From positions 1 to 64,000 of the forward strand of contig JAUXVE010000056.1 of NCBI GenBank assembly GCA_030680415.1: a stretch of DNA of 64,000 nucleotides, written 5' to 3'. This document shows positions 13,248 to 64,000 of this stretch, in pieces. The position numbers and the translations under genes were made by a program. Each line of letters starts with the position of its first letter. The first letter of the stretch is position 1. The notes below the pieces were generated by a model that did not search any database, was not told where the DNA came from, and was given only the letters and a program-made list of their open reading frames with translations. The DNA is from Rubrivivax sp. (GTDB lineage Bacteria; Pseudomonadota; Gammaproteobacteria; Burkholderiales; Burkholderiaceae_C).

Positions 13248-13344
13248 CGACACGGTGAACTGGCTCGAACGGGGGCTGCGGCGGCTGTCGGCCGTGTGGC
13301 GTTCAAGCCTGCGTCGAGGGTGCGACAGCGGCAGCACACATTCA

Positions 13345-13358
13345 TTGACGCTGATCAA
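13345..13358. promoter_or_regulatory. FNR/CRP-type box in the divergent ATPase-hupS promoter region
   Basis: TTGACGCTGATCAA matches the FNR consensus TTGAT-N4-ATCAA at 9 of 10 defined bases. It lies in the 218-bp gap between the divergent ATPase and hydrogenase operons, centred 114 bp upstream of hupS and 104 bp upstream of the first ATPase gene. AATACG at 13383-13388 is at roughly the right distance to be a -10 element for a class II activated hupS promoter. It could serve either operon. Confidence 0.6.
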
Positions 13359-13465
13359 CCTGCAACGCCTGCCAAGGTTCCCAATACGGCCCATTGACAG
13401 GACAGAGCGCGATTCCTCAGAGCCCGCGCGTCGCTCAACGCGCACCCAACGCAGGAGCAGACAAG

Positions 13466-14566
13466 ATGTTCGAGACCTACTACGACTTGATGCGCAGGCA
13501 GGGGATCTCCCGCCGCAGCTTCGTCAAGTTCTGCAGCCTCACCGCGGCCTCGCTGGGCTTGGGCGATGCCGGTGCGCAGCAAATCGCCACCGCGATGCAG
13601 ACCAAACCGCGCACACCGGTGATCTGGCTCGAGGGCCTGGAGTGCACCTGCTGCAGCGAGTCGTTCATCCGCTCCTCGCACCCGCTGGCCAAGGACGTCG
13701 TGCTGTCGATGCTCTCGCTGGACTACCACATGACGCTGTCGGCCGCCGCCGGCGAGCAGTTGCGCGCCAACGCCCACGAGACGATCAAGAAGCACAAGGG
13801 CAACTACATCCTCGCCGTCGAAGGCAATCCGCCGCTGGGCGAGGACGGGATGTACTGCATCTACTACGGCCGTCCCTTCGTCGACGTGTTGCGCGAGTAC
13901 GCCAAGGACGCCAAGGCGATCATTTCCTGGGGCTCGTGCGCGAGCTGGGGTTGCGTGCAGGCAGCCAAGCCCAACCCGACGCAGGCCACACCGGTGCACA
14001 AGGTGATCACTGACAAGCCGATCATCAAGGTGCCGGGTTGCCCGCCGATCGCCGAAGTGATGACCGGTGTACTCACGTACATGCTCACCTTCGACCGCCT
14101 GCCCGACCTCGACGCCCAGGGCCGGCCGAAGATGTTCTACAGCCAGCGCGTGCACGACAAGTGCTACCGCCGCCCGCACTTCGACGCCGGGCAGTTCGTC
14201 GAGAACTTCGACGACGCCGGCGCGCGCCAGGGCTACTGCCTCTACAAGATGGGCTGCAAGGGCCCGACCACCTACAACGCCTGCTCGGCCACGCGCTGGA
14301 ACGAAGGTCTGTCGTTCCCGATCCAGGCCGGCCACGGCTGCATCGGCTGCTCCGAGGACGACTTCTGGGACAAGGGCGGTTTCTACAACCACCTGACGTC
14401 GATCGGCATACCGGGTCTGGGTGGCGCCGAGGGCACGGCCGACAAGATCGGCCTCACGGTTGCCGTCGGCGCCGGTGCGGCGATCGCCGCACACGCCGCG
14501 GTCACCGCCATCCGGCAGGCGCGCAGCAAGCATGCCAACGACCAAGTCAGCACGGTGGAGAAGTAG
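13466..14566 (+). CDS. hupS: [NiFe]-hydrogenase small subunit, O2-tolerant group 1 type
   Basis: A 366-aa Fe-S subunit of a membrane-bound uptake hydrogenase. It has a Tat signal (ISRRSFVKF, residues ~14-22), and the proximal cluster ligands C60, C63, C158 and C192. The two additional cysteines known from O2-tolerant enzymes are also present: C62 in ECTCCSE and C163 in SCASWGC. Distal and medial clusters follow in DKCYRRPHF...GYCLYKMGC and CSATRW...GHGCIGC. A C-terminal hydrophobic helix (about residues 325-350) anchors it to the membrane. Start: ATG 13466 is preceded by GCAGGAG; the frame also opens at TTG 13394, but the Tat signal fits the ATG. It is followed directly by hupL. Confidence 0.95.
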
Positions 14567-14569
14567 ATC

Positions 14570-16363
14570 ATGGCAACCATCGAGACCCAAGGCTTCACGC
14601 TCGACAACAGCGGCAAGCGCATCGTCGTCGACCCCATCACGCGCATCGAAGGACACCTGCGCATCGAGGTCAACGTCGACGGCAACAACGTGATCCGCAA
14701 TGCCGTGTCCACCGGCACCATGTGGCGCGGCCTGGAGGTCATCCTCAAGGGTCGCGATCCGCGCGACGCCTGGGCCTTCGTCGAGCGCATCTGCGGCGTC
14801 TGCACCGGCGTGCACGCGCTGGCGTCGGTGCGCTCGGTGGAGGACGCGCTCGCCATCCAGATCCCGAAGAACGCCAACATCATCCGCAACCTGATGCATG
14901 CCACGCTGTTCGCTCAGGACCACCTGGTGCACTTCTACCACCTGCATGCGCTGGACTGGGTCGACGTGGTCTCGGCGCTGAAGGCCGACCCGAAGAAGAC
15001 GTCCGAGCTCGCGCAGAGCATCTCGCCGTGGCCGAATTCCTCCCCCGGCTACTTCCGCGAGGTGCAGAACCGGCTGAAGAAGTTCGTCGACAGCGGCCAG
15101 CTCGGCATCTTCGCCAACGGCTACTGGGGCAGCGCGGCCTACAAGCTGCCGCCCGAAGCCAACCTGATGGCCACCACGCACTACCTCGAGGCGCTGGACT
15201 TCCAGAAGGAGATCGTCAAGATCCAGACCATCTTCGGCGGCAAGAACCCGCACCCGAACTGGCTCGTGGGCGGCGTGCCCTGCTCGATCAATGTCAACGA
15301 CACCGGCGCCGTGGGTGCCATCAACATGTTCTACCTGAACATGGTCGGCAGCATCATCGACCGCACGATCGCCTTCATCGACCAGGTCTACATACCCGAC
15401 CTGCTGGCCATCGCGTCCTTCTACAAGGACTGGGCGAAGTGGGGCGGCGGCCTGGCCAGCACCAACGTCATGTCCTACGGCGAGTTCCCCGACATCGCCA
15501 ACGACTACTCCAACAAGAGCATGCTGCTGCCCTCGGGCGTGATCATTGGCGGCAACCTCAAGGAAGTGCTCGACGTCGACCTGAAGGCTGCCGACCAGGT
15601 GCAGGAATGGGTCACCCACTCCTGGTACAAGCAGGGCGACGAGACCAAGGGCCTGCATCCCTTCGACGGCGTCACGGTGCCCAACTTCGAGCTCGGCAAG
15701 GGCACCAAGGGCACCAGGCTGAATGTCGAGAACTTCGACGAATCGGCCAAGTACTCGTGGGTCAAGTCGCCGCGCTGGAAAGGCCACCCGGTGGAGGTGG
15801 GACCGCTGGCGCGCTACATCGTCGGCTATGCGCGCGGCCGCGAGGACATCAAGGCCCAGGTCGACATGGTGTTGAAGACCCTGGACGTGCCCATCACCGC
15901 CCTCTTTTCCACCCTGGGCCGCACCGCGGCGCGCGGGCTGGAGGCATCGTGGGCCGCGCACAAGATGAAGTACTTCTACAACCAGCTCATCGCCAACATC
16001 AAGGCCGGCGACCTGAGCACTGCCAACATCGACAAGTGGGAGCCCTCGAGCTGGCCCGCCGAAGCCAAGGGCGTGGCGCCGTGCGAGGCGCCGCGCGGAG
16101 CGCTGGCGCACTGGGTGAAGATCAAGGACAAGCGCATCGACAGCTACCAGTGCGTGGTGCCCACCACCTGGAACGCGGGCCCGCGTGACGCCCAGGGCCA
16201 GATCGGCGCCTACGAGGCCGCGCTGCTGAACACCCCGATGGTCAACCCCGAACAGCCGCTGGAGATCCTGCGCACGATCCACAGCTTCGACCCCTGCCTG
16301 GCCTGCGCGACGCACGTCATGTCGCCCGAAGGCAAGGAGCTCGTTTCGGTGCAGGTGCGCTGA
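14570..16363 (+). CDS. hupL: [NiFe]-hydrogenase large subunit
   Basis: The 597-aa catalytic subunit that splits H2 at the NiFe(CN)2CO centre. The L1 motif [10 protein letters not shown] holds C75 and C78. The C-terminal L2 motif [11 protein letters not shown] holds C576, C579 and H582. The maturation protease (hupD in this window) should cut after H582, removing the 15-residue tail [16 protein letters not shown]-terminal [14 protein letters not shown] is typical. The gene lies three bases after hupS and 16 bases before hupC. No unusual substitutions noticed. Confidence 0.97.
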
Positions 16364-16379
16364 GCCCGAGGAGAAAACG

Positions 16380-63488: not shown

Positions 63489-63571
63489 CTTGAATTTCGG
63501 GGTCGCTGTGGAACTGGGCAGGAGCTTCTTCGAAGACCCTCCGCATGGTCGCTTGCCGCGCCCGTCGCAGC

Positions 63572-63585
63572 TTGATGCGGGTCAA
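63572..63585 (-). promoter_or_regulatory. FNR/CRP-type box before the conduit operon
   Basis: TTGATGCGGGTCAA: left half TTGAT is perfect and right half GTCAA is the common variant of ATCAA. It lies 84 bp upstream of the undecaheme cytochrome start. I see no convincing -10 on the minus strand at the class II distance. Confidence 0.55.
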
Positions 63586-63636
63586 CGATTGCGGAACTTT
63601 GCTCACCGCAGCACGGCCTTTGCGGCAGAAAAGAGC

Positions 63637-63660
63637 GAAGGGACTGCAGGCAGTCCCTTC
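63637..63660 (-). terminator. Terminator of the partial cytochrome gene
   Basis: GAAGGGACTGC (63637-63647), AG, GCAGTCCCTTC (63650-63660): an 11-bp perfect stem. Read on the minus strand it is followed by GCTCTTTTCTG, so it ends the gene at 63722-64000 and insulates the conduit operon. Confidence 0.7.
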
Positions 63661-63721
63661 TTCGGTCGGCATCTCGGATTGGCGGCGCAACGCCGCTGTA
63701 CCCCGCCCGGGTGGCGTCACA

Positions 63722-64000
63722 TCACTTCACGTGGCAGGTCAGGCACATGCCCGAGGCCACACCGCCGGCGCTGACCGTCTGCGCGGTGCGCAGCAGGCGC
63801 GTGCCGGCCACCGAGTCCTGGTCGTGCACGTCGTGGCAGGTGGAACACTGCAGCCTGCCGTTTTCCAGCGTCGAGGCCACGCTGTCGCCGTTGTTCCAGG
63901 TGGCCACTGTGGGGTCGGTGAAGTTCTTGCCGTCACCCGTCTCGCCGGCCGGGAAGGCGATGGAGATGGGGTGCGTGCCGCGCACGTCGAGATTGCCGCC
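63722..64000 (-). CDS. C-terminal end of another multiheme cytochrome (5' end outside window)
   Basis: The frame is open from the window edge to a stop at 63722 (93 codons). It reads GTHPISIAFPAGETG, the doubled-CXXCH family's usual text, then two heme motifs: CSTCHDVHD and CLTCHVK at the very end. It is related in style to the dodecaheme cytochrome. It shows that the cytochrome cluster continues beyond the window. Confidence 0.8.
   Translation of the reverse strand, partial: GGNLDVRGTHPISIAFPAGETGDGKNFTDPTVATWNNGDSVASTLENGRLQCSTCHDVHDQDSVAGTRLLRTAQTVSAGGVASGMCLTCHVK

Follow-up and report, generated by a model that had tools for sequence, protein, structure and literature searches.

Extracellular electron transfer has mostly been studied in Geobacter, which uses the inner-membrane quinol dehydrogenases CbcL and ImcH with porin-cytochromes of its own, and in Shewanella, which uses CymA and MtrCAB. 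We analyzed the first 64,000 bases (hereafter the window) of the 118,733-base contig JAUXVE010000056.1, from a draft genome of Rubrivivax sp. (Burkholderiales; GCA_030680415.1; 4.76 Mb in 167 contigs, 96% complete), together with the rest of that contig and related genomes. Here, in bacteria that appear to be facultative aerobes, inner-membrane enzymes of the Geobacter type and a conduit of the Shewanella type are encoded at one locus with an oxygen-tolerant hydrogenase. We read this gene island as a facultative respiratory line that would carry electrons from H2, and from pyruvate-derived cytoplasmic reductant, to the cell exterior (probability about 0.6).

The neighborhoods of mtrCAB, including those of Betaproteobacteria, were surveyed by Baker et al. 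2022 with the Shewanella MtrCAB as the model (PMC8805035; comparisons with published work, here and below, draw on portions of each cited text). Like the present cluster, the surveyed ones combine proteins of the MtrC, MtrA and MtrB types, and for Betaproteobacteria the survey also reports an HhH gene next to mtrC and mtoC next to mtrCAB, whereas the Rubrivivax island adds a hydrogenase, menaquinone genes and an ImcH-type protein; the main text of the survey contains neither the word "hydrogenase" nor "CbcL". Since mtoC and the HhH gene were reported there, and mtoC belongs to the CbcL family (PMC6295460), a CbcL/MtoC gene and an HhH gene beside mtrCAB are not new. Zhong and Shi (PMC6295460) reported no mtrAB or mtoAB adjacent to imcH in their survey, whereas several relatives of the window have imcH and mtrCAB separated by only a few genes. 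The Rhodoferax ferrireducens mtr cluster in the same paper is likewise a betaproteobacterial mtrABC with a CbcL/MtrH homologue, but the other quinol dehydrogenases of that organism are of the CymA type, and "hydrogenase" does not occur in the portion of the text consulted.

Two reports on metagenome-assembled genomes (MAGs) are also comparable. Porin-cytochrome clusters of karst MAGs likewise possess ImcH- or NapC/NirT-like inner-membrane cytochromes, with no hydrogenase link found in the consulted part of the report (PMC13264449). Rubrivivax MAG I27, which expressed mtrBA and mtrF in cable-bacteria sediment, shares the genus name and Mtr genes with our genome, whereas the word "hydrogenase" does not occur in that paper (PMC11748539). 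A preliminary description of the window had known of no account of its combination of modules as a unit. No description of a joint hydrogenase-CbcL/ImcH-MtrCAB cluster was found in the open-access full-text literature, as far as its texts were covered; it is the link to hydrogenase and ImcH for which no account was found there, CbcL/MtoC beside mtrCAB having been published. By their sequences, all parts of the island belong to known families.

Hydrogenase, quinol dehydrogenases and conduit

Genes were called with a codon-usage script and named through Pfam and NCBIfam (Table 1). All modules named in the preliminary description were found where it had placed them, with intact frames and family-level matches. 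The hydrogenase small subunit, HupS, has a Tat signal (TIGR01409; 20.2 over a cut-off of 16.7), and its residues 44-357 align to Cupriavidus HoxK with both extra cysteines present (CTCC and the Cys in [12 protein letters not shown]). Two extra small-subunit cysteines at the proximal iron-sulfur (Fe-S) cluster are the mark of oxygen-tolerant hydrogenases, and both were kept in all seven other HupS pieces of this type examined from the genus, an eighth match (L024) being a different hydrogenase type. The best PDB sequence matches of HupL were Hyd-1 and HoxG. HupSLC is, by these sequence features, an oxygen-tolerant membrane-bound hydrogenase of the HoxK/HoxG (Hyd-1) type, for which H2 oxidation in air is predicted. 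It resembles Cupriavidus HoxK/HoxG and E. coli Hyd-1 in its subunit sequences, extra proximal-cluster cysteines and b-type cytochrome partner; the Cupriavidus membrane-bound enzyme feeds O2 respiration, whereas the hydrogenase of the window sits among electron-export genes. A further gene, at 69.5-71.2 kb of the contig, has weak formyltransferase and enoyl-CoA-hydratase matches, an architecture that we take to be that of HypX, and the hypX-like gene of relatives comes directly after hypE or imcH. The hypX-like gene and the rubredoxin gene of the maturation run fit hydrogenase maturation in air.

The CbcL-like protein (693 residues) contains 11 CXXCH haem motifs within residues 57-346. A structural model built from 20 aligned relatives (pLDDT 73, pTM 0.61) has six long helices within residues 373-691, four of which were flagged in a hydropathy scan (cut-off 1.6), and FdnI of formate dehydrogenase N was its sole PDB fold match at E<=0.001 (1kqf_C; TMt 0.74). 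Histidines 396, 435, 477, 590, 605, 608 and 610 are invariant across the 20 sequences and are candidate haem ligands. The CbcL/MtrH/MtoC family has been described as having an N-terminal multihaem c domain (3-23 motifs), about six helices and a HydC/FdnI-like diheme-b domain (PMC6295460, PMC9129911), and the protein, as modeled, has the features of this family. Both it and Geobacter CbcL combine an N-terminal haem domain with a six-helix diheme-b domain, with 11 haems here against 9 there (PMC6295460, PMC9129911). A plasmid origin of CbcL was considered and rejected, as no match was found in the plasmid collection.

The second inner-membrane protein (470 residues) had been labeled NapC/NirT-like. 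There is indeed a cytochrome at this position, but its features are those of ImcH: three N-terminal hydropathy helices near residues 5, 42 and 99, a CX3CH motif at 135 and five CX2CH motifs. Proteins of the ImcH family are characterized by three membrane helices at the N-terminus, an adjacent CX3CH and between five and nine CX2CH motifs, and the Geobacter protein shares the three helices and the CX3CH with ours but has six CX2CH rather than five (PMC6295460). The search for relatives (tblastn, E<=1e-40, products <300 residues dropped) returned 24 rows, with some genes appearing twice. Besides the window's own protein, 21 were full-length or longer, and each of them has five or more CX2CH motifs together with the CX3CH. 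Two further pieces are shorter: the CX3CH is retained in L048 and is absent from L019, whose N-terminus is missing. The CbcL and ImcH assignments were both made by comparison with published feature descriptions.

The conduit lies beyond the window, as a complete mtrC-HhH-mtrA-mtrB set at 84.8-91.4 kb of the same contig. The MtrB barrel matches chain B of 6r2q, which we take to be an MtrABC complex, and chain C of that entry is listed as OmcA/MtrC family. The MtrC-type protein has 10 CXXCH motifs and an LSGC lipobox recognized by eye. The island exceeds the span given in the preliminary description on both sides, with menA/ubiE at 2574-4255 and mtrCAB at 84.8-91.4 kb. MtrCAB is probably the conserved exit in this family of islands, and extracellular transfer is predicted from it.

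Menaquinone genes accompany these components. The menA gene is found near hupL in several relatives, menD is present elsewhere in the window's genome (the classical menaquinone route), and HemG, a menaquinone-dependent protoporphyrinogen dehydrogenase, adjoins mtrB on the contig. A futalosine route was rejected, as PF02621 was not found in the genome search and the classical menD was found instead.

Gene order and co-occurrence in relatives

Scanning the CbcL-like protein against GTDB-representative contigs returned 25 loci, in records named Rubrivivax, Leptothrix, Rhizobacter and Burkholderiales and in more distant groups (Gammaproteobacteria, with Steroidobacteraceae and Thioalkalivibrio; Nitrospirae; Aminicenantes; Deferribacterales). 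The nearest named relative was a MAG called Rubrivivax sp. (L007; 96% identity). Gene maps cover 21 of the loci, those outside being L026 and L027 (short), L030 and L031. The cytochrome module of the window sits between hypD and hypE, as had been described, and this placement was borne out in relatives: cbcL lies between the two genes in seven of the eight pieces that show all three (the window, L007-L011, L013 and L015, with L007 a very near relative), the exception being L011, in which it follows hypE.

The most compact arrangement runs from hydrogenase to conduit without a break. In G065 (L011) we found the order ubiE-menA-...-hupSLC-hupDFGHJK-hypABFCDE-cbcL-imcH-hypX-c-c-mtrC-HhH-mtrA-mtrB at 15.4-46.7 kb (about 31 kb), and in G075 (L009) hupSLC...hypABFCD-cbcL-hypE-hypX-c-c-mtrC-HhH-mtrA-mtrB. 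Thus, the modules recur together in related genomes, and the outcome that the preliminary description had named as counting against it, namely modules that never co-occur, was not observed. Further pieces repeat parts of this order. G042 (L010) has hypABFCD-cbcL-(reversed imcH-like gene)-hypE-c-c-mtrC-HhH-mtrA-mtrB, with no hupL detected; G014 (L014) has the same gene set plus the six-haem/Fe-S/NrfD block, split on two contigs; and L015 has hyp...cbcL-imcH-hypE-c-c-mtrC-HhH, followed by a second decahaem-type gene cut by the piece end. In G066 (L012), G038 (L028) and G034, only a few genes separate cbcL-imcH from mtrCAB, and none of these is a hyp gene. The gap between cbcL and imcH is 49-59 bases in four pieces lacking the inserted block. 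No imcH was found beside cbcL at L009 or on the L024 piece, and L010 has only the reversed relative (29% identity). At other loci (e.g. L016-L019, L021, L022), the cbcL-imcH pair occurs with neither hydrogenase nor MtrCAB on the piece, and in G019, the apparent match of L016, mtrB and hupL are 12-14 kb from cbcL.

A separate case was encountered in L024, a Steroidobacteraceae MAG. Here, a TmcC-like membrane protein and a DsrK/TmcB-like protein are encoded between the two hydrogenase subunits, small and large, a layout that we take to be the Isp-type arrangement, and this group is followed by cbcL, mtrC, mtrA, mtrB and V-type ATPase genes. The locus is thus of the kind seen above, but its hydrogenase is by sequence of another type.

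Co-occurrence was then counted in 81 genomes of the genus, the window's own included. Relatives of CbcL were close (69-100% identity) in 11 and distant (37-46%) in four. MtrB_PioB was present in all 11 close-CbcL genomes against 24 of the 70 others, and MenA in all 11 against 25 of 70, G042 and G075 having only a 43-46% relative; hupL at >=78% identity was found in 9 of 11 against 6 of 70, and PFOR at >=80% in 9 of 11 against 4 of 70 (Fisher exact test; p from 5e-5 to 1e-7, with genomes treated as independent of shared ancestry). CbcL and MtrB were on one contig, 6-44 kb apart, in 9 of the 11, the remaining two genomes being in 490 and 720 contigs; hupL was also on that contig in six (12-76 kb from CbcL), and PFOR shared a contig with CbcL in three. 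We also compared 15 genomes with hupL at >=78% and 15 with hupL at 57-71%, excluding five with weaker or partial hupL. An MtrB match was present in 14 of the former, strong in 13 (about E 1e-110 or better, our own cut-off), against 8 of the latter, strong in 3. Among 399 genomes drawn evenly from the order, with up to two candidates scored per genome, 18 (own included) matched CbcL at E<=1e-100, none but the window's own at >43% identity.

Proposed electron route and alternative readings

In the proposed route, HupSLC would oxidize H2 at the periplasmic face and reduce menaquinone, and CbcL or ImcH, chosen by acceptor potential, would oxidize the menaquinol. In Geobacter, CbcL and ImcH serve low- and high-potential acceptors, respectively. 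Electrons would then pass, probably via small periplasmic c-type cytochromes, to MtrA, which would cross the outer membrane inside the MtrB barrel and hand them to the surface lipoprotein MtrC, while PFOR, ferredoxin and Nfn would handle pyruvate reductant during anoxia. Because cbcL and imcH are placed inside the hyp run, export capacity would rise with active hydrogenase. The presence of these genes, their order, their family features and their recurrence in relatives were observed; from the sequences we infer an outward flow, menaquinone as the carrier, H2 as a physiological donor for export, and co-transcription. An H2-to-outside route in a betaproteobacterial island had been put forward before, and it persists here in modified form, as hydrogenase and quinol-to-outside genes recur in relatives but the conserved exit is MtrCAB and the NrfD block is optional.

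That several related bacteria keep the same neighbors suggests that the bacterium of the window may breathe minerals, electrodes or other cells with H2 as fuel. If H2 does drive export, hydrogen oxidizers could go on using it without oxygen, with a bearing on iron cycling, cable-bacteria partners and bioelectrochemistry. A stronger proposal, to which we give somewhat less than even odds, is that quinone synthesis, oxygen-tolerant hydrogenase, maturation genes, CbcL with ImcH and a Shewanella-type conduit form a selected hydrogen-to-outside unit in Rubrivivax-like Burkholderiales, assembled separately with another hydrogenase class in L024. With such a unit, Knallgas-type bacteria could change their acceptor from O2 to minerals, electrodes or conductive partner cells while keeping the same fuel. 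The island suits a genetic test of the potential-switch model, because several relatives have cbcL and imcH as adjacent genes and L009 has cbcL without imcH beside it.

Several observations weigh against the coupling of hydrogenase and export. On the window's contig, 70 kb of sequence, including accessory blocks, separates hupL from mtrB, and imcH is about 35 kb from mtrCAB; in G034 and G038, the distance from hupL to CbcL is 52 kb and 76 kb, with menA and V-type ATPase genes next to the hydrogenase. The association tests leave shared ancestry uncorrected. Of the 15 genomes with hupL at >=78%, six have no close CbcL (G018, G043, G049, G059, G073, G076); two of these, G043 and G076, carry hupL and MtrB on one contig, and G018 (73% complete) yielded pieces of hupL but no MtrB. 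Conversely, G042 and G066 have CbcL and MtrCAB with no hupL detected, and among the 22 strong-MtrB genomes, 12 are without close CbcL (10 with) and 9 without hupL at >=78%. The window's genome also contains a RuBisCO-family gene, possibly for a RuBisCO-like protein, since the family also matches in B. subtilis, and four COX1-family matches, which may include nitric oxide reductase. With these two families, H2/O2 growth, CO2 fixation or inward flow would be possible.

The same observations bear on an unlikely but serious alternative, in which the neighbors are uncoupled: the hydrogenase would serve Knallgas respiration and CO2 fixation, CbcL/ImcH/MtrCAB would export electrons from organics, and the two would have been gained or be regulated together under low O2. 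The RuBisCO- and COX1-family genes, the hypX-like and rubredoxin genes with their presumed role in maturation in air, and the genomes in which hupL and CbcL occur without each other are all consistent with it. It accounts less well for the position of cbcL inside the hyp run in nearly all informative pieces, for the excess of strong MtrB among genomes with the closer hupL, and for the presence of another hydrogenase type in the comparable locus of L024.

Reverse flow appears more improbable still. Here, electrons from a cathode, partner cells, Fe(II) or Mn(II) would enter the quinone pool through MtrCAB and CbcL and sustain O2 respiration and CO2 fixation, H2 serving as another donor. CbcL/MtoC homologues are found in Fe(II) oxidizers and the Mtr system can run in either direction (PMC6295460), homologues of mtoC and mtoD are neighbors of mtrCAB in Betaproteobacteria (PMC8805035), and MtrC was reported in seven Gallionella/Sideroxydans MAGs (PMC10734462), to which the RuBisCO-family gene may be added. 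However, ImcH homologues were reported in Fe(III) reducers only (PMC6295460); the menaquinone genes and HemG suggest use under anaerobic, low-potential conditions, and PFOR/Nfn fits anaerobic oxidation of organics. Finally, it is very improbable that the NHL/barrel/multihaem cluster at 51-64 kb, the route out in the preliminary description, is the exit instead of MtrCAB: although it is closest to hypE on the contig, places a putative barrel, which has a signal-like start and showed no hydrophobic helix on scanning, among multihaem cytochromes and two NHL proteins whose starts resemble lipoboxes (partly by eye), and has its order repeated in L067, relatives of the barrel occur in 3 of the 81 genus genomes (own included, the other two at 26-27% identity), the cluster of G066 sits on another contig than CbcL/MtrCAB, and MtrB, outside the window, is the conserved partner of CbcL.

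Accessory cluster, companion genes and neighbors

Table 1. Features of the window and of the adjoining contig, with the basis of each assignment.
Feature	Coordinates	Strand	Basis
menA, 1,4-dihydroxy-2-naphthoate prenyltransferase	2574..3512	-	TIGR00751 141.7 bits, cut-off 102.15
ubiE/menG quinone methyltransferase	3509..4255	-	TIGR01934 over cut-off
hupS, hydrogenase small subunit, HoxK-like	13466..14566	+	Pfam/NCBIfam, HoxK alignment
hupL, NiFe hydrogenase large subunit	14570..16363	+	PF00374 E 5e-234
hupC, b-type cytochrome, quinone side of hydrogenase	16380..17090	+	TIGR02125 203.7 over cut-off 121.5
Nfn-type fusion, FNR-like and glutamate-synthase-beta-like subunits	17696..20056	+	Pfam/NCBIfam
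Rubrerythrin-domain protein	20053..20688	+	PF02915
PFOR, pyruvate:ferredoxin oxidoreductase	20766..24431	+	TIGR02176 1730 bits, cut-off 911
Dihydroorotate-dehydrogenase-like protein	24428..25435	+	NF005741 over cut-off
4Fe-4S ferredoxin	25484..25729	+	Family match
HycI-type protease (hupD), HupF/HypC-type, hyaE (hupG), hupH, rubredoxin (hupI), hybE (hupJ), hupK-like, hypA (hup letters presumed)	31381..35984	+	Pfam
hypB, hypF, hypC, hypD	36015..40751	+	Pfam
CbcL-family quinol dehydrogenase	40937..43018	+	Signal peptide, haem motifs, helices, fold
Optional block: six-haem cytochrome, Fe-S protein, NrfD-type membrane protein	43296..46383	+	Family matches
Many-helix membrane protein, weak DUF2339	46511..48226	-	Family scan, helix scan
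ImcH-family quinol dehydrogenase	48554..49966	+	Helices, CX3CH, CX2CH
hypE	50000..51136	+	AIRS/AIRS_C; gene caller start 50087
11-haem cytochrome	55319..57025	-	Haem motif scan
NHL-repeat protein	57022..58059	-	Family match; lipobox by eye
Putative outer-membrane barrel	58095..60113	-	No family match
5-haem cytochrome, second NHL protein, 9-haem cytochrome	60100..63488	-	Family/haem motif scans
MtrB/PioB barrel	contig 84,791-86,884	-	PF11854 E 3e-150; full-length match to 6r2q chain B
Decahaem MtrA-type (DmsE-type) protein	contig 86,939-87,925	-	TIGR03508 over cut-off
HhH protein	between mtrA and mtrC	-	Contig gene map
Decahaem OmcA/MtrC-type protein, 925 residues	contig 88,582-91,359	-	TIGR03507 over cut-off

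The NHL cluster was retained as one that may form a second conduit, because its order is repeated in G066 (L067, 3411-13092: haem proteins, NHL, barrel-like, NHL, 11-haem). Together, window positions 51190-63488 and the L067 cluster possibly represent an undescribed porin-cytochrome type. The label of barrel is unproven, as the protein had no Pfam match and no PDB-sequence match and its single-sequence fold model (pLDDT 31) is too low in confidence to show a fold.

The six-haem/Fe-S/NrfD block between cbcL and imcH was found in the window, L007 and L014/G014, and partly in L023. Its identification as NetBCD/PdsA was rejected, since the six-haem protein reached 79.5 of 330 bits for PdsA, over the C-terminal half only; NetB was absent from the NCBIfam matches of that protein. 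The reversed weak-DUF2339 membrane protein accompanies the block in L007 and L014.

PFOR, ferredoxin and Nfn, which had been counted as members of the island, are present in the window but prove to be companions rather than a fixed part of it, PFOR being frequent in CbcL genomes but seldom on the contig of CbcL. A second Nfn-like pair (two genes) and then a 2-oxoacid:ferredoxin oxidoreductase pair lie at 91,768-97,208 of the contig (L005), and their counterparts in G066 come directly after the PFOR/Nfn genes. Between menA/ubiE and hupSLC, a V/A-type ATPase operon occupies window positions 5334-12909 (minus strand), an arrangement repeated in G034 and G038; V-type ATPase genes are a recurring neighbor, as they also come after mtrB in the gammaproteobacterial L024.

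Between PFOR and the maturation genes, a TAXI/TRAP-type transporter and a universal stress protein were found at 27227-30953 (minus strand). No RNA family reached gathering scores in the window, and an ARAGORN call of an undetermined tRNA with a four-base anticodon, at 35320-35412 inside the hupK gene, is probably a false positive. Beyond the window, positions 71,344-77,888 of the contig (L004) encode a rhodanese-domain protein, two proteins whose starts resemble YeeE, and a PhsA-like molybdoenzyme together with Fe-S and NrfD subunits, genes whose likenesses suggest sulfur-compound respiration on the contig of the island. At about 105-116 kb (L006), look-alikes of a copper P-type ATPase, a MerR-type regulator and RND metal efflux proteins were noted by their first residues alone.

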